64,000 bases of DNA from Maritalea mediterranea. Its GTDB lineage: Bacteria; Pseudomonadota; Alphaproteobacteria; Rhizobiales; Devosiaceae. Position 1 is the stretch's first letter. Each line of letters opens with the position of its first letter. Of this stretch, positions 48,017 to 61,029 are shown in pieces. The notes below the pieces were generated by a model. That model saw only the letters and a program-made list of their open reading frames with translations, made no database searches and was not told the DNA's origin. Made by a program: the position numbers and the translations under genes. Location of the stretch: assembly GCF_021568695.1 (NCBI RefSeq), contig NZ_JAKGTI010000001.1, positions 1,798,001-1,862,000 on the forward strand, in the 5' to 3' direction.

Positions 48017-48069
48017 TGGTGCGGGTGGAGGGACTTGAACCCCCACGCCTGAGGCACCAGAACCTAAAA
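48017..48069 (-). pseudogene. 3' half of a tRNA-Leu gene, candidate attL
   Basis: From the anticodon loop (TTTTAGGT, anticodon UAG) through TCTGG, a GCC-TCA-GGC variable arm, T-arm and acceptor to CCA. The 5' half is missing and replaced by unrelated DNA. The last 31 nt (48017-48047) are identical to the end of the intact tRNA-Leu 120 nt away, but the variable arm differs. It is best read as the host tRNA end left after phage integration near the anticodon loop. Confidence 0.75.
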
Positions 48070-48167: not shown

Positions 48168-48252
48168 TGGTGCGGGTGGAGGGACTTGAACCCCCACGGA
48201 CAAAGCCGCTGGTACCTAAAACCAGTGCGTCTACCAATTTCGCCACACCCGC
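48168..48252 (-). tRNA. tRNA-Leu(UAG), intact
   Basis: 85 nt with encoded CCA. Acceptor GCGGGTG pairs with CACCCGC. Anticodon stem CTGGT/ACCAG with loop TTTAGGT gives TAG. A long class II variable arm is present. A TTGACA (48287-48292) with a weak -10 17 nt on (48264-48269) stands directly upstream. It could be phage-borne, compensating for the split host gene, or the original host gene. Confidence 0.93.
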
Positions 48253-48324: not shown

Positions 48325-49290
48325 CTAAAAGTCCAACAACGCCTCTCCAGCGGTGTCGAGATCATTCGCCACAAGATTGGTGTATCTCATGGTAGTTTGA
48401 ATGCTCTTATGACCCATCCACTTCATTACCTTGGGTAGGTTCACGTTCTTGCGAACCATCCGAGTGCAACAAGTGTGCCGCAGCATATGAGGGACGAAGT
48501 CAGGATCATCCCCTGCTCCCATGTGGTGGCGCATACGGTTCCAATGATCCCTAAACGTGTCACGAGGGATTACCTTAAAAGGATATTCGAACTCAGTATG
48601 CTTCGCTACAATGTCCCAGCCCTCTTTTGCTGGCCCGATTAAGGGTACCAAGCGATTCGATCCATTCTTGGTATCCATGAACTTGACATACCCGCCACTC
48701 ACATTGTTTCGGTGAACCTTATAGGCCTCACCCAAACGACAGCCCGTATACAAGAGGAAGTTAAATAGGGCTGCGGAGTTTTGTTGACCGATGTGGAATA
48801 GATATTCAACACACCGTTCTTCTTCGTGCCGCTCCAGTACCCGTTCGCGTCCCTTCCCTTCTTTTTGAAAGGGTATTTTGGGGCGCTTTGGGATAAGTTC
48901 ACAATCCACAGCGTGAACCAGAAGCTTCGATAATGTGGATAATTTCCGATTGATCGTAGAGTTAGACAGCCTGTCCGCTTTCATCTTCTGGACGAGGTCT
49001 GCGATAACTTGGTTGGTGATCTTTGGAATTGGTTCTTCTGCCTTTATGTACTTTAGCAGAGTACGGCAGTTAATCTCTGTCGCTTGAGGTGCCTTGGTGT
49101 CACCCCATAAATAATCGAAATGTTCGTCAATGAATGCTTTGAAGGTCACTGACGAGTTGGTAGGGAGACCTTTGAGAATTGCCTTCTCATAAGTCTCCGC
49201 TTCCACCTGAGACGAGAAACCGCCCTTGCGGATACGTTCTCCGTTTATGACAACGTCAACTTGCCATCTATTCCCGCGCTTCCTTATCAT
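48325..49290 (-). CDS. int: phage tyrosine recombinase (integrase)
   Basis: A 321-residue integrase. The N-terminal arm-binding domain is MIRKRGNRWQVDVVINGERI and following, then a SAM-like core-binding domain (about 45-140) and the catalytic domain. The catalytic set is complete: R185 (YTGCRLGEA), H268 and R271 (HMLRHT), H294 (WMGHKS) and Y303 (MRYTN). It recombines attP with attB in tRNA-Leu. Its start overlaps the end of the winged-helix gene by 23 nt, so both are expressed together. It lies 73 nt from the 5' end of the tRNA. Confidence 0.95.
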   Translation of the reverse strand: MIRKRGNRWQVDVVINGERIRKGGFSSQVEAETYEKAILKGLPTNSSVTFKAFIDEHFDYLWGDTKAPQATEINCRTLLKYIKAEEPIPKITNQVIADLVQKMKADRLSNSTINRKLSTLSKLLVHAVDCELIPKRPKIPFQKEGKGRERVLERHEEERCVEYLFHIGQQNSAALFNFLLYTGCRLGEAYKVHRNNVSGGYVKFMDTKNGSNRLVPLIGPAKEGWDIVAKHTEFEYPFKVIPRDTFRDHWNRMRHHMGAGDDPDFVPHMLRHTCCTRMVRKNVNLPKVMKWMGHKSIQTTMRYTNLVANDLDTAGEALLDF

Positions 49291-49630
49291 TGACTAAACG
49301 CTCCTCGATATCTTTGATCAACGCTCGGCCCTTAGGCGTGAGCTTGAGTGTTTTCTTCCGACGATCCTCCCGGTTGGTGGTCACAGCAATCAAATGATGA
49401 CCGCCACTGGCCATCTCTTTGTGACCATCCTCCCAGTAGTAAACGTTGCGAGATGCTGGTCCAGACAACATTCCCACGCGCTTCTCAATCTCTTGAACGC
49501 TAATGTCGCGCCCCTGTTGTTCAGCGTCAGCAATCTCTAAAAGTGTTAGAATTGTGCCAATCTGCATCTTATGGTCGATGCTGTTAAAAACCCGATTGGC
49601 GGCGATGTATCGTTTCAGTATTGATGCCAT
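49268..49630 (-). CDS. winged-helix (MarR-like) regulator
   Basis: A 120-residue protein. The pattern IGTILTLLEIADAEQQGRDI-SVQEIEKRVGMLSGPASRNVYYWE-EDRRKKTLKLTPKGRALIKDIE matches a MarR/PadR-type winged helix with a beta-wing and closing helix. The ATG follows AGAGGAGAGA. One ACGTTAACGT palindrome lies 64 nt upstream, in the promoter region, so autoregulation is plausible. It is the best visible candidate for the lysogeny regulator; it could instead be an excision or integrase-level regulator. Confidence 0.75.
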   Translation of the reverse strand: MASILKRYIAANRVFNSIDHKMQIGTILTLLEIADAEQQGRDISVQEIEKRVGMLSGPASRNVYYWEDGHKEMASGGHHLIAVTTNREDRRKKTLKLTPKGRALIKDIEERLVNDKEARE

Positions 49631-49693: not shown

Positions 49694-49703
49694 ACGTTAA
49701 CGT
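49694..49703. promoter_or_regulatory. palindromic operator candidate ACGTTAACGT, copy 1
   Basis: Perfect 10-bp palindrome preceded by T. On the minus strand it overlaps a TTGCAC-N17-AATGAT promoter candidate in front of the winged-helix/integrase pair. Confidence 0.6.
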
Positions 49704-49897: not shown

Positions 49898-50166
49898 ATC
49901 TGTACTCCTTTGGAAGCATTAACTTGCACCGCGATCACATTTAATCACGGTTAACGCAGTTAATACGTTAACGTCGAGAACAAGCCTGTTCTAGACCTGA
50001 TTTAGGTGTTCATTCAAGGGCAAAAGCCTCCCCCCTTAACCTTCTGTAAATATCATCGTTTTAGGAGTAGTCGGGACTCCACGCGGAAACCCGCAGGAAT
50101 CCTAAGTATCTGTTTTTGCTGGATTACTTAGCTTGGTGTGGATATCCTGTGAATATTAACCTCCTT
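49898..50166. other. 269-nt non-coding segment with palindromes
   Basis: No convincing gene. It contains ACGTTAACGT copy 2, a second GTTAAC, GAACAAGCCTGTTC at 49978-49991 and, on the minus strand, a hairpin TTAGGA...TCCTAA enclosing GCGG-GTTT-CCGC. AAAGGAGG at about 50162-50169 has no start codon at the right distance. Confidence 0.5.
49965..49974. promoter_or_regulatory. palindromic operator candidate ACGTTAACGT, copy 2
   Basis: Same 11-mer TACGTTAACGT as copies 1 and 3. A second partial site GGTTAACGC lies 10 nt left and the imperfect palindrome GAACAAGCCTGTTC 4 nt right. It is upstream of the 54-residue gene. Confidence 0.6.
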
Positions 50167-50946: not shown

Positions 50947-51366
50947 TCAGTCTAACAGCCAGACGCCGCATGTCAGTTTGCGAGAAGCCCGACATAATCC
51001 AACTGGACGGACGCCATCCTGATCAACCATCCACCCATCTTTCACCACCTGAACGTGACCAGTGGTCCACACAAGATGACGGTGATGGCGCTTGAGGTAT
51101 GGGATCAAATTCTTGAGTGACTTGCGCCGCACCGGAAGCGCCTTAGGCTTAACGCCAAAGTGTTTGAGCGCATTCATAATTAACTCCATCGAAAGATAAC
51201 CCTTCCAGTTACTCCGACGATCCCTTGCGAAATGATCCCAGACAGTTTGGAAGTCCAGCCCAGCGGCCACCGCTACTGCCGTAATCCCACACACTGGACC
51301 TCGAGGCGTCCCATTTGGGACAGCCAGACCAATGTCACGAGGCACTTCAAACTCACGCTTAATCAT
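50947..51366 (-). CDS. phage protein with cysteine-peptidase-like residues
   Basis: 139 residues from ATG 51366 (MIKREFEVPRDIG), with GGAG about 10 nt upstream and an 8-nt overlap with the previous gene. GPVCGITAVAVAAG followed about 75 residues later by TTGHVQVVKDGWMVDQDG gives a Cys...His...Asp layout like C39/papain-type peptidases. This is a pattern match by eye; the protein could also be an inactive relative. Early location suggests action on host proteins. Confidence 0.6.
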   Translation of the reverse strand: MIKREFEVPRDIGLAVPNGTPRGPVCGITAVAVAAGLDFQTVWDHFARDRRSNWKGYLSMELIMNALKHFGVKPKALPVRRKSLKNLIPYLKRHHRHLVWTTGHVQVVKDGWMVDQDGVRPVGLCRASRKLTCGVWLLD

Positions 51367-51589
51367 CGTATGAATACTCCTCTGCAATGCTATCCAAGAT
51401 CATTTTCTTCCGGTCTTCCGGTGTCTGTTCATTTTCAAAAAGATTTCCCAGAGACTGATGCAAGTCGTCGCAGTCGCTACCCGTTTCGAGTAACGACACC
51501 GCTTCGTCAGCCTTGCGATTGAACCTTCCAACACCCATGACCCCATCGTAGAGCCACTGATATTGATGCCCCTCATAATATATCAACAT
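51359..51589 (-). CDS. 76-residue acidic phage protein
   Basis: ATG at 51589, directly behind promoter-like repeat P1. Product begins MLIYYEGHQYQWLYDGVMGV and ends SIAEEYSYDD. No family recognised. Overlaps the next gene by 8 nt. Confidence 0.65.
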   Translation of the reverse strand: MLIYYEGHQYQWLYDGVMGVGRFNRKADEAVSLLETGSDCDDLHQSLGNLFENEQTPEDRKKMILDSIAEEYSYDD

Positions 51590-51597
51590 TACCGTTA

Positions 51598-51620
51598 TTT
51601 CCCCGTTATCGTAGGTATTA
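51598..51620 (-). promoter_or_regulatory. T7-promoter-like repeat P1
   Basis: Minus strand TAATACCTACGATAACGGGG plus AAA. It has the same length and layout as the T7 promoter (TAATAC at the start, G run at the end). It lies 8 nt upstream of the 76-residue gene. Confidence 0.65.
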
Positions 51621-52409
51621 GCCTATAACAAAGCCGGACTTGTCCTTACGAGCGTCACCCTTTGCGTAGAGCGCAACGATCACACCTTTGGGATCAAGAT
51701 GTCGTAAGTCAGTCTCGTCTCCATTCACGATTGGAACCTCCTTTGTTGGCTCACCGAACAATGCAGTACCTTCAAACTTTTCGATTGTTTTCTTGTCGCG
51801 GAAAACCACGGCAACGTTACACCCAGTGTCGCTATGCGCCTTCTCAACAGCCATCGCATATTTACTATCGGCTTCACTATATGAAAGCACCAGCGTGTAA
51901 TTATCAGGCAGATCACGATAAACCCGCTTGTAAATCTTGGTGTAATCGTAGAACTGAATGTTTGGGAATGCCTCAAAGATGTGGGCGTAATTCACCACGT
52001 AGTGCATCGGATCATCATGTTGGGTTTTATGAGTCCGAACACATGGATGCCCTACTTCCCATTGAATATCTGATGTCCCATTGAGACGCACCACGGGCTT
52101 CACACCTTTCTTGGCGCAGTAACGCTCAAACCGCTCGAGGTTGTCCACCAATTCACTCATGAACGCAGCACGATCTTTGTGATAACGCTGGGTCTTCGCA
52201 ACACGAGCCTTTTGCACGTTGCTCATGCGACCACGTCCGGCAGTGTTGAGACACGCCTTGAGACACCCAGCCTTCTCAGCCATAGGGCAAACTGTTGGAC
52301 CACCTGCCAATGTAGCTGGTGCAAGGTACATGATTGCAGTCTCAAATGCACCGTCACCCTTAACAGTCTTTGCGTTGTTTCCTGAGCGGATCAGTGTTCC
52401 GGCGAACAT
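51618..52409 (-). CDS. cysteine-rich phage protein, GP88/DUF7227-like
   Basis: 263 residues from ATG 52409, chosen because GGAGGG stands 8 nt upstream within repeat P2; a longer frame to 52481 crosses P2. C41, C48 and C52 lie in TVCPMAEKAGCLKACLNTAG, a possible metal or Fe-S site, and RLNGTSDIQWEVG follows. I associate this with a phage family called GP88/DUF7227 of unknown function, with limited certainty. It is the largest gene of the early region and has a repeat-borne promoter of its own. Confidence 0.75.
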   Translation of the reverse strand: MFAGTLIRSGNNAKTVKGDGAFETAIMYLAPATLAGGPTVCPMAEKAGCLKACLNTAGRGRMSNVQKARVAKTQRYHKDRAAFMSELVDNLERFERYCAKKGVKPVVRLNGTSDIQWEVGHPCVRTHKTQHDDPMHYVVNYAHIFEAFPNIQFYDYTKIYKRVYRDLPDNYTLVLSYSEADSKYAMAVEKAHSDTGCNVAVVFRDKKTIEKFEGTALFGEPTKEVPIVNGDETDLRHLDPKGVIVALYAKGDARKDKSGFVIG

Positions 52410-52414
52410 GGTAT

Positions 52415-52438
52415 TCCCTCCGTTATCGTAGGTATTTA
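52415..52438 (-). promoter_or_regulatory. T7-promoter-like repeat P2
   Basis: Minus strand TAAATACCTACGATAACGGA followed by GGGA. The 3' end of the repeat doubles as the ribosome site of the cysteine-rich gene (ATG at 52409), so transcription would start almost at the Shine-Dalgarno. Confidence 0.65.
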
Positions 52439-52511
52439 GACAAAAAAATAGCGTGGGTTTTCTCTGATTTTCCCACGCCATTAAGCGAAAACTTGCGATG
52501 TTCGGAGGCGA

Positions 52512-52859
52512 CTAAACAGTCACATAAAGAGTCCAAAAATATAGCCCAACGGATATCCCAAAGAACCCAAAGAACGCCTTGTAAAACTGACGAGACCGCA
52601 GCGCATAAACTGCGGTGATCACCAGCAAAATCAGCGTGTAAGTGAGGTTTATTCGCATGAACATGGTGGAATAAAGGAAAGCAAAGACAATACCCAGTGA
52701 GAAGATGACCCACCAGTCCTTCCAGCTTTTCTTCTTGAGACCCACCACGGTTGAAACCACGAGAACCCCCAGCGATATTAAGACAAATATCAGGCCACGG
52801 ATTTCGGAGTAACTTTCAAAACCCCACGACTGCAAAAGCAGGATCAATTCTAACGTCAT
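52512..52859 (-). CDS. phage membrane protein with about four helices
   Basis: 115 residues from ATG 52859 (MTLELILLLQSWGF), with GAGGGGG 3-4 nt upstream; the frame opens at 52928 from a TTG. Hydrophobic segments at about 22-42, 50-65, 72-88 and 95-112. No family recognised. An early membrane protein in a T7-like prophage could affect superinfection or the cell envelope; this is inference. Confidence 0.65.
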   Translation of the reverse strand: MTLELILLLQSWGFESYSEIRGLIFVLISLGVLVVSTVVGLKKKSWKDWWVIFSLGIVFAFLYSTMFMRINLTYTLILLVITAVYALRSRQFYKAFFGFFGISVGLYFWTLYVTV

Positions 52860-52887
52860 ATCCCCCTCAAATTGTTTCTTTAGTAGC

Positions 52888-52974
52888 TCAATCTGAGAAC
52901 TGATAAGACCACCTTCCCCGCTTTTCAAGCCGCCTCTTGATTAACTTAATAAAGTGGTGACTAGAATTACTCAT
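52888..52974 (-). CDS. 28-residue basic phage ORF
   Basis: ATG at 52974 with AAGGTGG upstream; product begins MSNSSHHFIKLIKRRLEKRG. Basic and short; supported only by its ribosome site and position before the membrane protein gene. Confidence 0.4.
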   Translation of the reverse strand: MSNSSHHFIKLIKRRLEKRGRWSYQFSD

Positions 52975-53073
52975 ACGCCACCACCTTAGAACGTTAATCC
53001 CTATCTTTTGGTGGTTGATTGCTTTTGCCAGCCCGGTGCAATTGATGCCTACCAACCTGCTGCACGTCCAGAT

Positions 53074-53136
53074 TTAGGGGATACTCTTAGGCGTATCTGT
53101 CCTGCATCTTTCAGTGGTCCTTGCGAGACTGGTCAT
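53074..53136 (-). CDS. possible 20-codon leader ORF
   Basis: ATG at 53136 with CAGGAG 3 nt upstream, product MTSLARTTERCRTDTPKSIP. Very short; may be chance. Confidence 0.2.
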   Translation of the reverse strand: MTSLARTTERCRTDTPKSIP

Positions 53137-53201
53137 GTCTCCTGCTGCCTACTGAAGCAATCTTTTGTGTCGAAACATTGTGCCTTTGGATAGGTCACAC
53201 A

Positions 53202-53231
53202 ATATCAGACAATTCATATTCACGATGTCAA
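53202..53231 (-). promoter_or_regulatory. TTGACA-N18-TGATAT promoter candidate, overlapping a boxA-like motif
   Basis: Minus strand TTGACA at 53226-53231 and TGATAT at 53202-53207. The surrounding AGTTCTTTGACATCGTGAA is repeated at about 53457-53476 and resembles the alphaproteobacterial rrn boxA, so it may be an antitermination site rather than a promoter. Confidence 0.35.
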
Positions 53232-53325
53232 AGAACTTAGGGGTTCGCACCCTATCCGCTCGAGCCGCCTAAGCGTCTGTCGCTGATTTCTGTTCAACGC
53301 TAACAATCTTCGTTAGTGCCGCCAA

Positions 53326-53346
53326 CTACGTTATCGGAGATATTTA
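53326..53346 (-). promoter_or_regulatory. T7-promoter-like repeat P3
   Basis: Minus strand TAAATATCTCCGATAACGTA plus G. Shares CTCCGATAACG with P5. Followed about 90 nt downstream by a boxA-like motif. Confidence 0.5.
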
Positions 53347-53456
53347 TGAGAACTTTTCCGAACCGCGCAGATCACCTAGCTGTTGGCCTTTTGCCTGTTG
53401 CTGTTGTGGTGTCCGCTAGGCCGTTTGATTGCCTCAAATCGTCCGCAAACGTAATC

Positions 53457-53476
53457 TTCACAATGTCAAAGAACTG
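53457..53476 (-). promoter_or_regulatory. boxA-like motif 2
   Basis: Minus strand AGTTCTTTGACATTGTGAAG, flanked by a CTTCA/TGAAG inverted repeat. It lies about 70 nt downstream of repeat P4. The other copy is at 53219-53237. Confidence 0.35.
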
Positions 53477-53543
53477 AAGCGTTGAGTGCTTCCCGCTGAA
53501 GTCTTTCGGTGTCCCGCTTCGTTCAGCGTGGTTACACCCTAGC

Positions 53544-53569
53544 TTACCTCCGTTATCGTAGTCAATATC
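53544..53569 (-). promoter_or_regulatory. T7-promoter-like repeat P4
   Basis: Minus strand GATATTGACTACGATAACGG followed by AGGTAA. Core CTACGATAACGGAGG is identical to P2. Confidence 0.55.
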
Positions 53570-53648
53570 TTTTTTGTAGATTTTTGAAAATTTTTTGAGA
53601 GACTTTTTCGCCCTATAATAAGTCACCCTTGGCGCGGTATAGGATCGC

Positions 53649-53703
53649 TGCGGTATCTTTGCGGTGTCTCTGCGTTATCTTTGCGGTGTCTTTGCGTGAT
53701 ATT
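53649..53703. repeat. five tandem 11-bp repeats
   Basis: Plus-strand units TGCGGTATCTT, TGCGGTGTCTC, TGCGTTATCTT, TGCGGTGTCTT and TGCGTGATATT follow without gaps. A partial unit GCGGTATAG lies just left. Position between early genes and terminase recalls the short-repeat arrays next to T7 terminal repeats. Confidence 0.75.
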
Positions 53704-54060
53704 TCAAAAAATGTGGGATCAGACAAAAAGACAAAAGAGACCAAAGGAAAGCGCGGGGCTTCTCTTGGGCATCTCATTGGTCACCCTACCTTTGCAGATG
53801 TGTTATCTAGTATGATATCTAATGTTTTCAGACACTTATCAAAAAGATGTGTCGCCAGTTGTGACAATTCTCGCGCCATATAGGGCATTTGCGACCCCCT
53901 ACCCACCCCCACGGGGGAAACGAAGTCTTCACTCTCTACGAAATACCACTTCAGATTTTTTCAGAAAACCTCCGCGATATCTCAGAGGGACCCTCACAGC
54001 ACACTCTAAACACCTCCGTGCTGCCCCACAGTTGCGATCTCAGAGGCTTCGCGAAGGTCT

Positions 54061-54083
54061 CCGCTAGGGATATACCAGAGAGA
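54061..54083 (-). repeat. class 2 conserved element, copy A
   Basis: Plus strand CCGCTAGGGATATACC plus AGAGAGA. It matches copy B (56163-56185) at 20 of 23 positions; similarity continues to the right for about 20 nt (to CACAG). The minus-strand end TAGCGGAGA resembles the start region of a phage promoter. Confidence 0.55.
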
Positions 54084-54094
54084 ACATAAACGAC

Positions 54095-54172
54095 TCTCAC
54101 AGGTCATTTATTTAGGTCCGTTATCGGAGCTAACTTGCTACAGACAACCGGAGCTAAGACTGACCTGTGAGA
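54095..54172. repeat. 12-bp perfect inverted repeat enclosing P5
   Basis: TCTCACAGGTCA (54095-54106) and TGACCTGTGAGA (54161-54172). The 54-nt loop contains P5 and a direct repeat CGGAGCTAA (twice). Confidence 0.7.
54112..54136 (-). promoter_or_regulatory. T7-promoter-like repeat P5
   Basis: Minus strand AAGTTAGCTCCGATAACGGA followed by CCTAA. Lies within the inverted repeat 54095-54172. Confidence 0.5.
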
Positions 54173-54173
54173 A

Positions 54174-54347
54174 ATCTATGAGTGAACGTGGAGATATCTT
54201 GCGAGATAACAATGAGAGAACTCTGGAGATATATCTTAGATATTATCTTTGCTGTTATATCTCATAATAATCTCATAAAGACCTTATGAGGTATCTCTAA
54301 GATATCTATGAGTTATATATGAGATAGGGTACTCGATTTTATCTCAT
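54174..54347. repeat. cluster of ATGAGATA/TATCTCAT-type short repeats
   Basis: About ten full or near copies of GAGATA, TATCTC or ATGAG in both orientations within 175 AT-rich nt, e.g. TATATCTCATAATAATCTCA and GAGATATATCTTAG. One pair, ATGAGATA (54319-54326) and TATCTCAT (54340-54347), forms an inverted repeat across the -10 of the promoter at 54326-54354. Confidence 0.65.
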
Positions 54348-54354
54348 TTGTCAA
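54326..54354 (-). promoter_or_regulatory. strong host-type (sigma-70) early promoter candidate
   Basis: Minus strand TTGACA (54349-54354), 17-nt spacer, TACCCT (54326-54331). It starts 40-60 nt after the terminase stop and reads into the early region. Palindrome copy 3 stands 7 nt upstream of the -35, and the ATGAGATA inverted repeat spans the -10. Confidence 0.65.
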
Positions 54355-54361
54355 TACCCCT

Positions 54362-54371
54362 ACGTTAACGT
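54362..54371. promoter_or_regulatory. palindromic operator candidate ACGTTAACGT, copy 3
   Basis: Third copy of the 11-mer TACGTTAACGT, immediately upstream of the near-consensus host promoter. Confidence 0.6.
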
Positions 54372-54410
54372 GGGTAATTATTTTTGAGAGAAAACAGCAA
54401 CAATGGTGTC

Positions 54411-56108
54411 TTAGAATGAAGTCCAAGCCATCTTAGACCCACCTGAGAACTCCTTGTTTAATGGAGACTCATGGAGACGTCTGATTTGCTCCTCTAACCA
54501 CTCTTGATGCTGTCTATCAGCAACCGTTGCTGCGTCTTGGTTCATCAGCTCAACAAAATGACCAACCAACATTGCCAAGGTATCAATTCTGTCATCATGT
54601 CTCAGAGCGTCTTTTTGACGACAGATATGTGTCATCTGATAGAACAAACTCTTGTGGCTTCTGATGCTTGTCTCATACTTCTGAATAGACTTGTGGTCTT
54701 CTTCAATGACCGATGGGTCTACGATCAGGCGATGCTGAGAAATCACAGGTTCCAACACGTCGAGAATGCGCATTTCCTTCATGGTATTTGAACGAACTTC
54801 AACAATCTCGGCGTTGACGTCATTGCGTCTCAACACAGGCTCTAGAAGCTTCCCAAACATACCATCGCCGAAGTTACTTTCGATAACGATGGATTGAACC
54901 TTATGCATCTTAGCGATTGTCACAAGGGTCTGCAGAGTTTCTTCATCGTAACCACCAGAGAGACCCCCAGCGGCTGGCACCCAGATGTTCGAAGCAAGCA
55001 TATAACCAACGGCATAACCTGTTTCGTCTTGACCTCGACCAGAGGGGTCAATTGCCATGACGCGATGTTGGTAGTGATCGAACTCATTCCCATGTCCTGC
55101 TGCTGCATACATGCGGTCACCGGACATACCATAGTTGGGAAGGTCTTTGAGTTCCCTGTCGGGATTCGGGAGCCAGAAGGTTTCGATTGGTGCCTTTTCA
55201 GGCGGCACCGGAAAGACCACAAGGTCCTTCAACTTCAAGGGGAAACGCTCCTCGTCCGACAGAGAGGTGTTGAGCATAAACTGCAACTGGTAACCTGCAA
55301 GCCCATACTCAGCCTTGCGGTCCATGAGTTCATCTAGATCGAAGCGATCAGGATCAACAGCTTGACCGAAACGACCCTCGTCGTACATCTTGCGGACCAT
55401 CGGTGCCAGATCATCACCGTAGTTGACGATTTCTTCCTTGGTTGGCACCTGACTGGGCCAAATACGCTTGGTAAAGGTTTCAGGCAGCTTGTTGTAAATG
55501 CTGTCTTCCGTCTGGGGTGTACCCAGATAAATCACGCGAGAAGTCTCAAGGGGTTTCAGGATAGCCGAGAACTCTTTCGTTTTCTCGATCAACTTGTCGC
55601 GCATGGTGACAGTCGCAGAGTTGTTCACCACTTCGACGTCATCGACAATGATGATATCAGCACGACCACCAGTAAGCTGGCTGTCAATGCCCTTAGCGAA
55701 GACAGAGGGTGTCTGATCGGGTTCTGCGGGACCCACATCGAACTCAACGCGGCTTGAACGCTGCGATGGTCGAGGTTTGAGGTGTTGGAGTTGAGGGACA
55801 GTCTGGATCAACTGCATCGTGAAGGTCACGAAGTTGTCCGATCGGTTCTTCGACGCAGACACCACCATGATCTTCAACTGAGGGTTCTTGTAGAGTTCCC
55901 AAAGTACGTATGCAGAAGTGATGAATGACTTCCCGATCCCCCGGAAAGCTTCAATGCACATCTTGTTTGGTCCATGCTGAATGAACCGCGCGATGTCGTA
56001 CTGAGCCGGGGTCGGATTAGGAAGATTGATGTGCTTCCAGATCATCCAAAGGAATTTTCGGAAGTCCTCCTTGAGAGGATCAACTTCCTCTTTGGGTTTA
56101 ATGACCAA
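54411..56108 (-). CDS. phage terminase large subunit, T7 gp19-like
   Basis: A 565-residue packaging motor. Walker A is EAFRGIGKS (K60, S61) and Walker B DIIIVDD (151-157), as in T7 gp19, followed by motif region SASKNRSDNF. The nuclease domain has VMAIDPSGRGQDETG and DDRIDTLAMLVGHF. It cuts and translocates phage DNA into the prohead. The start is uncertain: the frame opens with TTG at 56108 without a clear ribosome site. The gene is last of the late cluster, as in T7. Confidence 0.93.
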   Translation of the reverse strand: MVIKPKEEVDPLKEDFRKFLWMIWKHINLPNPTPAQYDIARFIQHGPNKMCIEAFRGIGKSFITSAYVLWELYKNPQLKIMVVSASKNRSDNFVTFTMQLIQTVPQLQHLKPRPSQRSSRVEFDVGPAEPDQTPSVFAKGIDSQLTGGRADIIIVDDVEVVNNSATVTMRDKLIEKTKEFSAILKPLETSRVIYLGTPQTEDSIYNKLPETFTKRIWPSQVPTKEEIVNYGDDLAPMVRKMYDEGRFGQAVDPDRFDLDELMDRKAEYGLAGYQLQFMLNTSLSDEERFPLKLKDLVVFPVPPEKAPIETFWLPNPDRELKDLPNYGMSGDRMYAAAGHGNEFDHYQHRVMAIDPSGRGQDETGYAVGYMLASNIWVPAAGGLSGGYDEETLQTLVTIAKMHKVQSIVIESNFGDGMFGKLLEPVLRRNDVNAEIVEVRSNTMKEMRILDVLEPVISQHRLIVDPSVIEEDHKSIQKYETSIRSHKSLFYQMTHICRQKDALRHDDRIDTLAMLVGHFVELMNQDAATVADRQHQEWLEEQIRRLHESPLNKEFSGGSKMAWTSF

Positions 56109-58908: not shown

Positions 58909-61029
58909 TTAACCTTGGATATGTTCGACAGAAAGCGAGGTCACGCCGTTCACGCAGTGAATATAGATCATCATCTTAGCGTTTGCCGCTGTTGTGAAAT
59001 CGTCATTATTCACTTTGTCAAAACCGACAATCGTCACGGCACCGCCACCCCCTGCTGCGTTTTCCACGAGAAGCACGAAGGTGTAACTGTTACCAAGTGT
59101 CGAAGGGTCTTTAGTGAGCGTGAAGTTTCCGTTGTTGGTGATACGGCCAAAGTTCCGACCATATTGGGAAGGAGATGGATAGAAGTTACCACCTGAGCTA
59201 CTACCCAGATCGGCAGCGTTGGTCTCATAACCAGCGTCTAGACGTGAATTAGTGTCTTTATCTACTTTGGTACCCAACTCCGTCGACAATCCTGAGATGT
59301 CACCAATTGAGTGTCCGTGTCCTGTAGCAGACTTTCCATCCAAAGCAGATTGTAGACCAGATACATCGCTGATAGAATGACCATGACCATTGGAAGATTT
59401 ATCATCCAATGCTGTTTGCAAACCCGACACATCGGAAATGCTGTGACCATGTCCGGTGTTGGACTTACCGTCGAGCGCGGTCTGGAGACCGGATATATCG
59501 GAGATGGAATGACCGTGTCCGGTCTCCGATTTACCACTCAAAGCACTATCAACTTCAGTCTTCGTATATGTTGAGCTTTTATCTGCCTTACCATCTAAAG
59601 CAGCCTGTTGTGCAACACTGACGGGCTTATCAGCATCAGATGTATTCTCAACGTTGCCAAGACCAAGGTTTGTCCTTGCCAAGGAAGCATCTGTCAAATC
59701 AGACAAATTGTTGCTGTTGATCAGTGCGCCGCCCAAGGTCACATAAGCGGCTACCCATTGGGTCCCATTATGCGCCCTCATTTCCTTCTCAGTGGTATTC
59801 CAGTAGATTTGCCCCTCAACACCCGCAGGATCGGATGCCATCTTTCCTAGATACCAAGCTTCGAACTCGCTGAGATGGTTAAACGCCAATGCCTCGGAGT
59901 TCGCTGCATTCGTTTCTGAGGTGGACGCAGCGGAAGCACTTGCAGAAGCTTCGGCAGCCTTCGTAGTGGCTGTTGTTGCGGCATCTTGTGCAGCAATCCG
60001 GTCTGCATCAGCCTGATCTCGATAGGTCTCAGTGGTGTTTCGGGCTGTTTCAGCGGCAGTCTTCGCAGTTTCGGCAGCGAGACGGTGTGCGTTTGTTTCG
60101 TCTCGATACCCCAGAGTGACGTCACGAGCCGTTTCAGATGCGCTCTGTGCGGCCAACGCTGTGGAAGCACTTGTTGAAGCTTCTGATGCCTTTGTTGAGG
60201 CCACATTCTCGGAGTTCGCCGAGTTTGTCTCGGAGGTTGCCGCGTTGCTCTCCGAAAGAGAAGCAGCCGCTGCGCTCACTGAAGCCTCAGACGCCTTTGT
60301 TGTTGCGGTAGAAGCTGCAGCTTGAGCTGCGATCCGGTCTGCATCCGCTTCATCGCGGTAACTTTGGGTCACATCTCGGGCTGTCTCGGCTGCGGTCTTT
60401 GCATTCTCAGCAGCAATTCGGTCCAGATCAGCCTCGTCACGATAACCTTGGGTTACATCACGAGCAGTTTCTGCGGCAGTTTGGGCAGCTTCGGTTGCTT
60501 GGCGATCCGCATCAGCTTCATCCCGATAAGTCTGTGCGGTGTCTCGAGCAGCCTCGGCAGCAGCCTGTGCGGCTTGCGTGGCAGCGAGGTTCGCTGCGTT
60601 CTCGCCAAAACGATCTTCCACATACTTTTTGGTTGCCGCATCCTGATCGTTTTTTGGCTGGGCTAAGTTTTTCAGAACCTGATTTGCAGCATCCCATTGT
60701 CCGTCGATGTCCTGTTGGAGAGACGCATCGGCCACCTCCTCTGAAATAAACAAGGACTGGAAAAAGGAGCGGTTTAGGTCATCATCGATTAGGACAGAAC
60801 CATCAACGAACTCATTGATTGGTTCATCGGTTGGAGTTTGACGATAGATTTTGAGGTCGCCTACAGGAGGCGTATCCATGCGTACCATGTAAGTTGAAAG
60901 GAACGTGAATGACGCCGGAACGCCATCCACAGTTGCCTTCACATGACTAGCATCAAGGTACTCGAAGTTGATTGCGAAGTCGGTCAACGAACCGTTCGCG
61001 TCAGGATAGAGGTCGTAACTCTTTGCCAT
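58909..61029 (-). CDS. tail fibre protein, T7 gp17-type N-terminus
   Basis: A 706-residue fibre. Residues 1 to about 120 match the T7 tail-fibre anchor domain (SYDLYPDANGSLTDFAINFE, FSFLSTYMVR-like, VLIDDDLNRSFFQSLFI). Residues about 145-385 are Ala/Thr-rich heptads (AAETARDVTQGYRDEADADR repeated) forming a trimeric coiled coil. Residues about 500-590 hold four 22-residue repeats GHGHSISDISGLQTALDGKS. A C-terminal knob follows. It adsorbs to the host surface. Confidence 0.9.
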   Translation of the reverse strand: MAKSYDLYPDANGSLTDFAINFEYLDASHVKATVDGVPASFTFLSTYMVRMDTPPVGDLKIYRQTPTDEPINEFVDGSVLIDDDLNRSFFQSLFISEEVADASLQQDIDGQWDAANQVLKNLAQPKNDQDAATKKYVEDRFGENAANLAATQAAQAAAEAARDTAQTYRDEADADRQATEAAQTAAETARDVTQGYRDEADLDRIAAENAKTAAETARDVTQSYRDEADADRIAAQAAASTATTKASEASVSAAAASLSESNAATSETNSANSENVASTKASEASTSASTALAAQSASETARDVTLGYRDETNAHRLAAETAKTAAETARNTTETYRDQADADRIAAQDAATTATTKAAEASASASAASTSETNAANSEALAFNHLSEFEAWYLGKMASDPAGVEGQIYWNTTEKEMRAHNGTQWVAAYVTLGGALINSNNLSDLTDASLARTNLGLGNVENTSDADKPVSVAQQAALDGKADKSSTYTKTEVDSALSGKSETGHGHSISDISGLQTALDGKSNTGHGHSISDVSGLQTALDDKSSNGHGHSISDVSGLQSALDGKSATGHGHSIGDISGLSTELGTKVDKDTNSRLDAGYETNAADLGSSSGGNFYPSPSQYGRNFGRITNNGNFTLTKDPSTLGNSYTFVLLVENAAGGGGAVTIVGFDKVNNDDFTTAANAKMMIYIHCVNGVTSLSVEHIQG
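59262..59525 (-). repeat. four 66-bp coding repeats with GHGH motifs in the tail fibre
   Basis: Each unit encodes GHGHSI(S/G)D(I/V)SGL plus about ten residues. DNA copies are diverged at third positions, so the repeat is kept at protein level. Confidence 0.8.

Follow-up and report, generated by a model that had tools for sequence, protein, structure and literature searches.

A short DNA element recurs in five exact copies within a 64,000-nucleotide stretch of the Maritalea mediterranea genome (the window; C8:1798001-1862000, with the end of contig C8 just 3.5 kb further right), which includes part of a temperate T7-like prophage. The sequence evidence leads us to regard these elements, with high confidence, as promoters for a single-subunit, T7-like RNA polymerase (RNAP) which the prophage itself encodes. 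What was observed are the copies with their strand and location, the gene of the cognate polymerase, the conservation of the motif with this polymerase and the alignment with T7 promoters. A preliminary description of the window had proposed promoters of this kind. It did not foresee an operator-like core, a copy overlapping a sigma70-like promoter or the finding of no copy in the late region.

Copies of the element and the cognate polymerase

In a pattern search of the window the core CTMCGATAACG was found in five exact copies, each on the minus strand and at the places given in the preliminary description. Three have the form CTACGATAACG (51604-51614, 52421-52431 and 53551-53561) and two the form CTCCGATAACG (53329-53339 and 54119-54129). 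The surroundings were also described correctly: the copy at 51611 overlaps the stop codon of a gp88-like gene and precedes an ATG, the copy at 52428 precedes the ATG of this gene at 52409, and the remaining three (53336, 53558 and 54126) lie in a stretch without recognised gene. TAATAC and GGGG are present at 51598-51620 as had been reported, and T7 spacing puts +1 of this copy on the second G of the G run. When one mismatch is allowed, the window holds 7 matches compared to 0.85 expected, a number to which 0/100 shuffles came; the two extras are CTACGTTAACG on the plus strand, within a palindrome discussed below. A search of the 3.3-Mb genome with the exact pattern gave no forward match and 6 reverse matches, all within one prophage; the one outside the window is at C13:19851-19861. 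The reversed control pattern gave one forward and one reverse match in the same genome.

The search of the full prophage, proposed in the preliminary description, revealed more copies. De novo 10-mer counting identified TACGATAACG as the most over-represented 10-mer of the prophage (13 places with at most one mismatch versus 0.9 expected; 0 exact on the opposite strand), and a weight matrix adds C13:20183, 19858, 19142 (weaker), 18127 and 13052, to give about ten copies in total. Two degenerate matrix matches, C13:22843 and 22742, lie upstream of the RNAP gene. All ten own copies are oriented alike, along the gene direction, have asymmetric flanks and are located between genes or at gene ends, that at C13:13052 still inside the exonuclease gene, within its final 50 bases. 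A strand check of the prophage with a matrix from seven own sites and a threshold of at least 12 bits gave 5 reverse matches per contig, all of them the same places read backwards or palindromes. The wider consensus around the core is (A)ATACC...GGAG. We write the elements as CGATAACGGAG, and CTACGATAACGGAG for the element as opposed to the palindrome ACGTTAACGT.

The preliminary description had predicted a gene for a single-subunit RNA polymerase to the right of the window and had made its reading depend on this gene. A profile search of the genome with PF00940 gave one match, at C13:20286-21398 on the minus strand, within an 832-aa open frame. This frame (C13:20190-22688, minus) encodes a T7-like single-subunit RNAP (PF00940 E 2.3e-97, phrog_414 E 7.7e-228), and thus the prediction of a distant gene from raw sequence proved right. 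From base 1 contig C13 encodes an internal virion protein, tail, capsid, head assembly, connector and ribonucleotide reductase, followed by exonuclease, DNA polymerase, primase/helicase, endonuclease, SSB and then RNAP. The C8 part of the prophage consists of a 700-aa gene, a 970+291-aa frame, which is probably one gene across the window edge, tail fibre, terminase, regulator and integrase. Two halves of a tRNA-Leu gene flank the prophage, the 5' half beyond RNAP on C13 and the 3' half beyond the integrase on C8, with TTTAGGTTCTG in common; when the flanks are joined, a single tRNA-Leu(tag) results, and the prophage itself carries a complete tRNA-Leu(tag). In the relatives G399 and G404, the matches to the two small genes that border the gap between C8 and C13 lie next to each other. 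Because the tRNA-Leu halves join and the gap-side genes are neighbours in relatives, polymerase and motif are assigned to a single temperate T7-like prophage, in which a small gap would place the polymerase gene about 24 kb right of the window. T7 gene order, RNAP, integrase and attachment site, which characterise a temperate Autographiviridae prophage, are all present.

Concerning the places of the copies, C13:20183 lies directly after the RNAP stop codon, 19142 before SSB, 18127 after the endonuclease gene and 13052 at the exonuclease gene end, before MazG, while 54126, 53558 and 53336 follow terminase. In the annotation of T7 (NC_001604), promoters follow genes 1 and 19, precede 2.5, 3.8/4 and 6.5, and lie near the left end. 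In our reading the own places pair with phi1.1A, phi2.5, phi3.8, phi6.5, phiOR and phiOL of T7, that is, with six kinds of place. Both phages hence have a cognate single-subunit RNAP and sites in one orientation behind the RNAP and exonuclease genes, ahead of SSB, around primase and at the genome end. The own phage differs from T7 in being temperate and in having a core that resembles a palindromic candidate operator.

The letters were compared by alignment on +1. T7 phi1.5, 1.6 and 4.3 end in CTAAA and phi4.7 in CTATA, and all four start with GGAG, so that TAAA or TATA is followed by GGAG, with an ATG 11-13 bases on. On the same alignment the own element reads CGATAAC followed by GGAGATA. C at -7, TAA at -4 to -2 (as in phi1.5/1.6/3.8/4c/4.3) and GGAG at +1 to +4 are alike; -11 to -8 as well as -6 and -5 are unlike, and the inferred own spacing is one base less. 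As in phi1.5/1.6/4.3/4.7, GGAG possibly doubles as ribosome site shortly before ATG. For the own copies that precede a gene, the distance from the inferred +1 to the first ATG is 9-16 bases in 6/7 and 22 in one. A section of PMC10138996 gives the layout of 17-bp promoters as AT-rich at -17 to -13, specificity at -11 to -7 and unwinding at -4 to -1. C at -7, TAA at -4 to -2 and G at +1 agree with this layout; AATAC, present in 3/10 copies, and the spacing of 16 instead of 17 do not. Since T7-like phages have lineage-specific promoter sets, as stated in parts of PMC10138996 and PMC10134795, the own promoter set joins a known kind.

Conservation with the polymerase in related phages

Compared with a collection of annotated phages (2589 records), the own RNAP shows less than 60% identity throughout, with CRP-403 on top (39%). 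Closer relatives were found elsewhere: L014 (60%), an Aminobacter prophage (60%), L099 and L186 (59%), G404 (57%), G400 (52%) and G379 (49%). L099, L186 and G404 entered the record set through the motif itself. The region behind the RNAP gene was compared in 40 records, namely 23 of 47 loci, G379 and five more genomes, six phages picked from the 2589 records, four records from the motif scan and the own one. In 10/11 records with RNAP identity of at least 37% (own included) and in 1/29 records below 37%, the 45 bases that follow the RNAP stop codon contain a variant of the core; the chance of such a match is about 2.7% per record in the former group and about 2.4% in the latter. Among relatives found by RNAP similarity alone the variant is present in 6/7, the miss being G379. 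A second conserved place is that ahead of a 78-aa gene: its orthologs are preceded by the element in 6/6 phages (own, G399, G400, L014, G404 and L099; G404 and L099 motif-fetched). The motif hence tracks the polymerase across relatives, which supports the earlier proposal of promoters for the own polymerase, and the search of related phages suggested along with it yielded variants.

The prophage of Aminobacter sp. J41 (G399/G397; RNAP 60%) has the motif after RNAP, before MazG and after gp88, where a copy at G399 37439 is orthologous to the own copy at 51598-51620. It also has a genome-end motif with TTGAC and a boxA-like sequence; unlike in the own prophage, its core is more variable (CTTCG/CTCCG, CGCTAACG, CGATAATG). 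The Roseobacter Autographiviridae phages CRP-403, CRP-804 and CRP-118 are similar in gene order, with RNAPs 38-39% identical to the own one. Directly after RNAP, CRP-403 and CRP-118 have TAATACTTACG(T/C)TA(G/A)CGTAAC and CRP-804 has GACTTACGATAGCGTAAT; further copies in CRP-403 and CRP-118 are mostly TAAYACTTAC(T/A)ATAAAGGAAC or TAACACTTACTCTAGCGAGAG. Variants are alike within one phage: both L014 sites are CAATAACAGGGATAC, and the CRP-403/CRP-118 sites share TAAYACTTAC. Such changes shared within a phage are as expected of a trans-acting reader. In the CRP phage paper (PMC11092137) the word 'promoter' was counted zero times.

With the seven-site matrix at 12 bits or more, forward matches number 6 in G400, 5 in G399, 5 in L099, 9 in G404 and 5 in G405; independent reverse matches number 4, 1, 1, 0 and 1, respectively. 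For most phages that do not belong to the clade, the numbers are 0-3 forward and 0-2 reverse. A scan of viral contigs with one 14-mer returned 97 stretches, 8 of them with at least 2 copies of CGATAACG[GAT]AG, and all 4 stretches with at least 3 copies, two of which are near-duplicates, encode relatives of this prophage. A scan with a second 14-mer (CAACGATAACGGAG) returned at least 120 stretches, and a single close relative was among the matches listed, namely the G400 contig (L291).

The specificity loop of the polymerase was aligned for 18/37 RNAPs. In the motif-bearing clade it has R...T(F/H)FDG....PR(I/L) in common and is 50-64% identical to the own loop over 42 residues. The loop of G379 is 36% identical to the own one, though the whole RNAP shows 49.5% identity compared to 52.8% in G400, and no convincing motif copy was found in the 70-kb G379 contig; this contrast is one pair (G379 and G400), not a statistical test. 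A de novo search for a promoter of G379's own gave a single candidate after RNAP (TCTTCTCTAGGAGACT) and no convincing second copy. The CRP motif variant and the G379/G400 contrast agree with a motif that follows the loop. L014 and G399 have nearly the same loop but elements that differ at -6 and +1. The own loop differs from that of T7, and so does the motif at -11 to -8, in line with the specificity region unlike T7 that had been postulated.

Another temperate system offers itself for comparison. As described in part of PMC10134795, the T7-like phage LUZ100, which has temperate features, carries an integrase and a MarR-like gene before its T7-like RNAP and has eight phage promoters with a 17-bp motif that is partly T7-like; the likeness of the promoters is one of description. 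The RNAP of LUZ100 is 34% identical to the own one. LUZ100 is the one case of mapped promoters which we found for temperate T7-like phages (PMC10134795, in part). The present elements provide a new polymerase-promoter pair for temperate T7-like phages, and its natural variants permit a comparison of promoter with specificity loop. These motifs were not found in open-licence literature on temperate T7-like phages, LUZ100, roseophages and CRP phages, which was searched otherwise than by motif letters.

By eye, a short inverted repeat was seen right after the RNAP gene in the farther relatives L066 and L017 (less clear in L071, L064 and L033). The examples CTCCATGTCTGGAG and TTCCACGCATGGAA stand where the own clade has the promoter-like element.

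Proposed mechanism and alternative readings

For polymerase binding, start site and timing at the elements we infer the following course. Upon induction or infection, host RNA polymerase would transcribe the early region including the polymerase gene. The phage polymerase would then bind the element, with the specificity loop at about -11 to -7 and an AT-rich contact at about -16 to -12, melt TAAC at -4 to -1 and start at the G of 'ACG', so that half of the copies would give messages beginning with GGAG. Where present, GGAG may double as ribosome site, with the ATG mostly at a distance of 9-18 bases. The middle genes would be driven by the copies in the replication block and behind the polymerase gene. 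The copies at the genome end, after terminase, stand at the phiOR and phiOL places of T7, and the late genes, which have no own copy, would be transcribed by read-through from upstream.

Several observations weigh against promoters of the phage polymerase. The pattern used for the region behind RNAP was composed after the sequences had been seen. In five relatives 7 independent reverse matches, four of them in G400, stand against 30 forward ones, and in G400 and G399 alone, which were not motif-fetched, 5 reverse against 11 forward. A matrix search of the own late region found no copy before the capsid, tail and internal virion genes, where T7 has phi9, phi10, phi13 and phi17. Copies at late genes are a feature of T7 and are not known to occur in every T7-like promoter set. 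Full CGGAG is present in 5/10 own copies and lacking in 5/10, three of the latter with T for the first G after the core. AATAC occurs in just 3/10 copies, and the spacing to the inferred +1 is 16 in the prophage instead of the T7-type 17. Finally, the core is nearly dyad-symmetric and similar to a candidate operator.

This operator is the perfect palindrome ACGTTAACGT, one base from the promoter core, which occurs in the prophage at 49694, 49965, 54362 and C13:22769: twice before the regulator gene, once before RNAP and once beside TTGACA after terminase. It is found twice more on host contig C12, which makes 6 in the genome as compared to 14 for a reversed control pattern. The two host palindromes lie 120 bases apart in L332 (C12:240574, 240694), beside a 591-aa frame which looks like an acyl-CoA ligase. 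The elements themselves might be operators: the lysogeny regulator, encoded beside the integrase, would bind both ACGTTAACGT and the elements as its imperfect copies and block transcription. The four perfect palindromes at these places, CTACGATATCGTAG about 25 bases before the regulator gene of G400, and the promoter core CTACGATAACG at one base from CTACGTTAACG speak for such operators, as do six copies (four phages) immediately behind TTGAC, since an operator in this position would block host RNA polymerase, and the proposal by the LUZ100 authors (PMC10134795) that a MarR-like protein represses a phage promoter. In the gene order the own regulator takes the same place as a gene annotated as 'MarR family' before the integrase in CRP-403/804/118, to which it is likened by position only; a Pfam search of the regulator gave no family. 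Nevertheless, we consider operators improbable as the whole explanation. The ten own copies run one way with asymmetric flanks, the centre is ATAA in 30/39 sites (five phages and the own one; sites picked with forward matrices or patterns), the copies between replication genes have an ATG too near for a host promoter to express the gene, and ACGTTAACGT itself occurs twice on host C12 and is less common than its reversed control. It is the separate ACGTTAACGT sites, not the promoter-like copies, that are palindromic and free of orientation.

The genome end brings host transcription into play. Copies directly after TTGAC are the own 53558, one in G399, two in G404 and two in G405, and most of them have a plausible -10 about 17 bases on. 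GTTCTTTGACAT, which is boxA-like, follows the TTGAC copy by 83-92 bases in the own prophage, G399 and G404, and a variant, GTTCTTTGAAAA, by 80 in G405; in G400, whose copies are otherwise typical, neither a TTGAC copy nor a forward GTTCTTTGACAT copy was seen. boxA is generally known as an antitermination signal (see also the abstract of PMC10250234). A search of the own genome for the full boxA-like 18-mer gave three exact matches. Two lie in the prophage, and the third immediately precedes a masked stretch on the upstream side of 23S rRNA; from its position this stretch is probably 16S, and the host match would then be the rRNA leader. In the Aminobacter genome the 18-mer was found in the prophage alone, so that identity with the host rRNA leader was seen in the own genome only. 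One prophage 18-mer is identical to the pre-rRNA host sequence and the other differs at one place; a 12-mer of the same kind is present in G399 and G404, with a variant in G405.

That the elements are host sigma70 promoters alone, with CGATAACG as part of the spacer, is very unlikely in our judgement. TTGACT, 17 bases and a TAGRNT-like hexamer do surround 53558, and like places exist in G399, G404 and, less clearly, G405. Among the own copies, however, TTGAC is confined to 53558 and is not found after RNAP or before middle genes, the -10 at the other copies would fall in or near the start codon, and G400 does without a TTGAC copy. Still less credit is given to RNA hairpins (CTNCG-ATAA-CGNAG) in 5' leaders, with a role in processing or in masking the ribosome site. 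The consensus does allow up to five pairs around a four-base loop, and the post-RNAP copies of CRP-403/804/118 (TTACG-NTAN-CGTAA) are perfect hairpins. The sole freely varying pair is formed in 15/39 sites compared to 14.4 in shuffled ones, with A opposite G as the commonest combination, that is, there is no covariation, and by eye two L014 sites do not fit the stem. The 39 sites exclude coding-looking and palindromic matches, L186 (a near-duplicate of L099), L014, the CRP sites and G404 32826. In view of the lack of compensating changes a hairpin, be it RNA or an N4-type DNA promoter, was rejected. As for chance repeats or patterns linked to Shine-Dalgarno sequences, GGAG often follows the core, and in 89/97 stretches with the exact 14-mer a search with 24 own prophage proteins found nothing at E <= 1e-10. 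Yet 6/6 exact genome copies lie on one strand of one prophage, and the placement is orthologous in divergent phages; together with the conservation after RNAP this rules out chance, to which we assign next to no probability.

Promoters of the phage polymerase could finally share their core with the regulator. In this combination, which we put forward tentatively and as rather less than probable, TACGWTAACG would be recognised by lysogeny regulator and phage polymerase alike. During lysogeny the regulator would cover polymerase promoters and host promoters, giving immunity at every phage promoter. The core at the genome end would lie in the spacer of an rRNA-style host promoter with a copy of the host rRNA boxA about 80-100 bases on, and early transcription would be antiterminated like rRNA. 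That promoter core and candidate operator would coincide with an rRNA-like early leader may be the part which a specialist would not expect. The combination offers a testable link between lysogeny regulator and polymerase promoters, of the sort proposed by the LUZ100 authors in the part of PMC10134795 that we cite.

Further features of the prophage

Table 1. Features of the prophage within the window (positions of the window; a dot marks features without strand)
Feature	Position	Strand	Remarks
Promoter-like copy TAATACCTACGATAACGGGGAAA	51598..51620	-	putative +1 51604; overlaps gp88-like stop codon, precedes ORF 51359-51589
Promoter-like copy AAATACCTACGATAACGGAGGGAA	52414..52437	-	putative +1 52421; ATG of gp88-like gene 12 bases on
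Promoter-like copy, core CTCCGATAACGTAG	53322..53346	-	non-coding genome end; boxA-like sequence ~100 bases downstream
Promoter-like copy CTACGATAACGGAGG	53537..53570	-	in spacer of sigma70-like pair TTGACT 53565-53560, CTAGGG 53542-53537
Promoter-like copy, core CTCCGATAACGGAC	54112..54136	-	~285 bases after terminase; T7 phiOR place
boxA-like GTTCTTTGACATTGTGAA	53457..53474	-	same as host sequence at C12:144873
boxA-like GTTCTTTGACATCGTGAA, second copy	53219..53236	-
Palindrome ACGTTAACGT, candidate repressor operator	54362..54371	.	adjoins TTGACA
Palindrome ACGTTAACGT, candidate operator	49965..49974	.	upstream of regulator gene
Palindrome ACGTTAACGT	49694..49703	.	~60 bases upstream of regulator gene start
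Regulator gene, candidate lysogeny repressor	49268..49630	-	phrog_9665 transcriptional regulator; adjoins integrase
Tyrosine integrase	48325..49290	-	PF00589 E 8.7e-21
tRNA-Leu (tag) at prophage left end, in place of split host gene	48168..48252	-
Left attachment core TTTAGGTTCTG with host tRNA-Leu 3' half	48058..48068	-	5' half on C13
Terminase large subunit, last gene before non-coding genome end	54411..56108	-	phrog_38 E 8e-112
gp88-like gene between two promoter-like copies	51618..52409	-	PF17338 E 3.5e-47
T7-type tail fibre gene, late region, no motif copy found	58909..61029	-	PF03906

Integration splits the host tRNA-Leu(tag) at TTTAGGTTCTG, in the region of the anticodon loop (also L011 2858-2900). 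In an Rfam search of the window from 48 to 56 kb the gathering score was reached by tRNA alone. The non-coding genome end after terminase shows by eye many short repeats at 53900-54400 and 53640-53760 (GATATCTC/GAGATA; CGCAAAGATACCG), possibly a terminal repeat or a replication region. A further repeat, CCTATACCG, is found on the coding strand at 53643 and 50410 (intergenic) and at C13:21701, 20822, 20255, 15224 and 13659 (coding), that is, 5/7 listed prophage places fall in coding sequence. For this repeat, CCTATACCGC has 5 exact matches in the prophage, 11 with at most one mismatch and 0 exact when reversed. The string of the repeat is also seen in stretches of G399, G404, G405 and L014.

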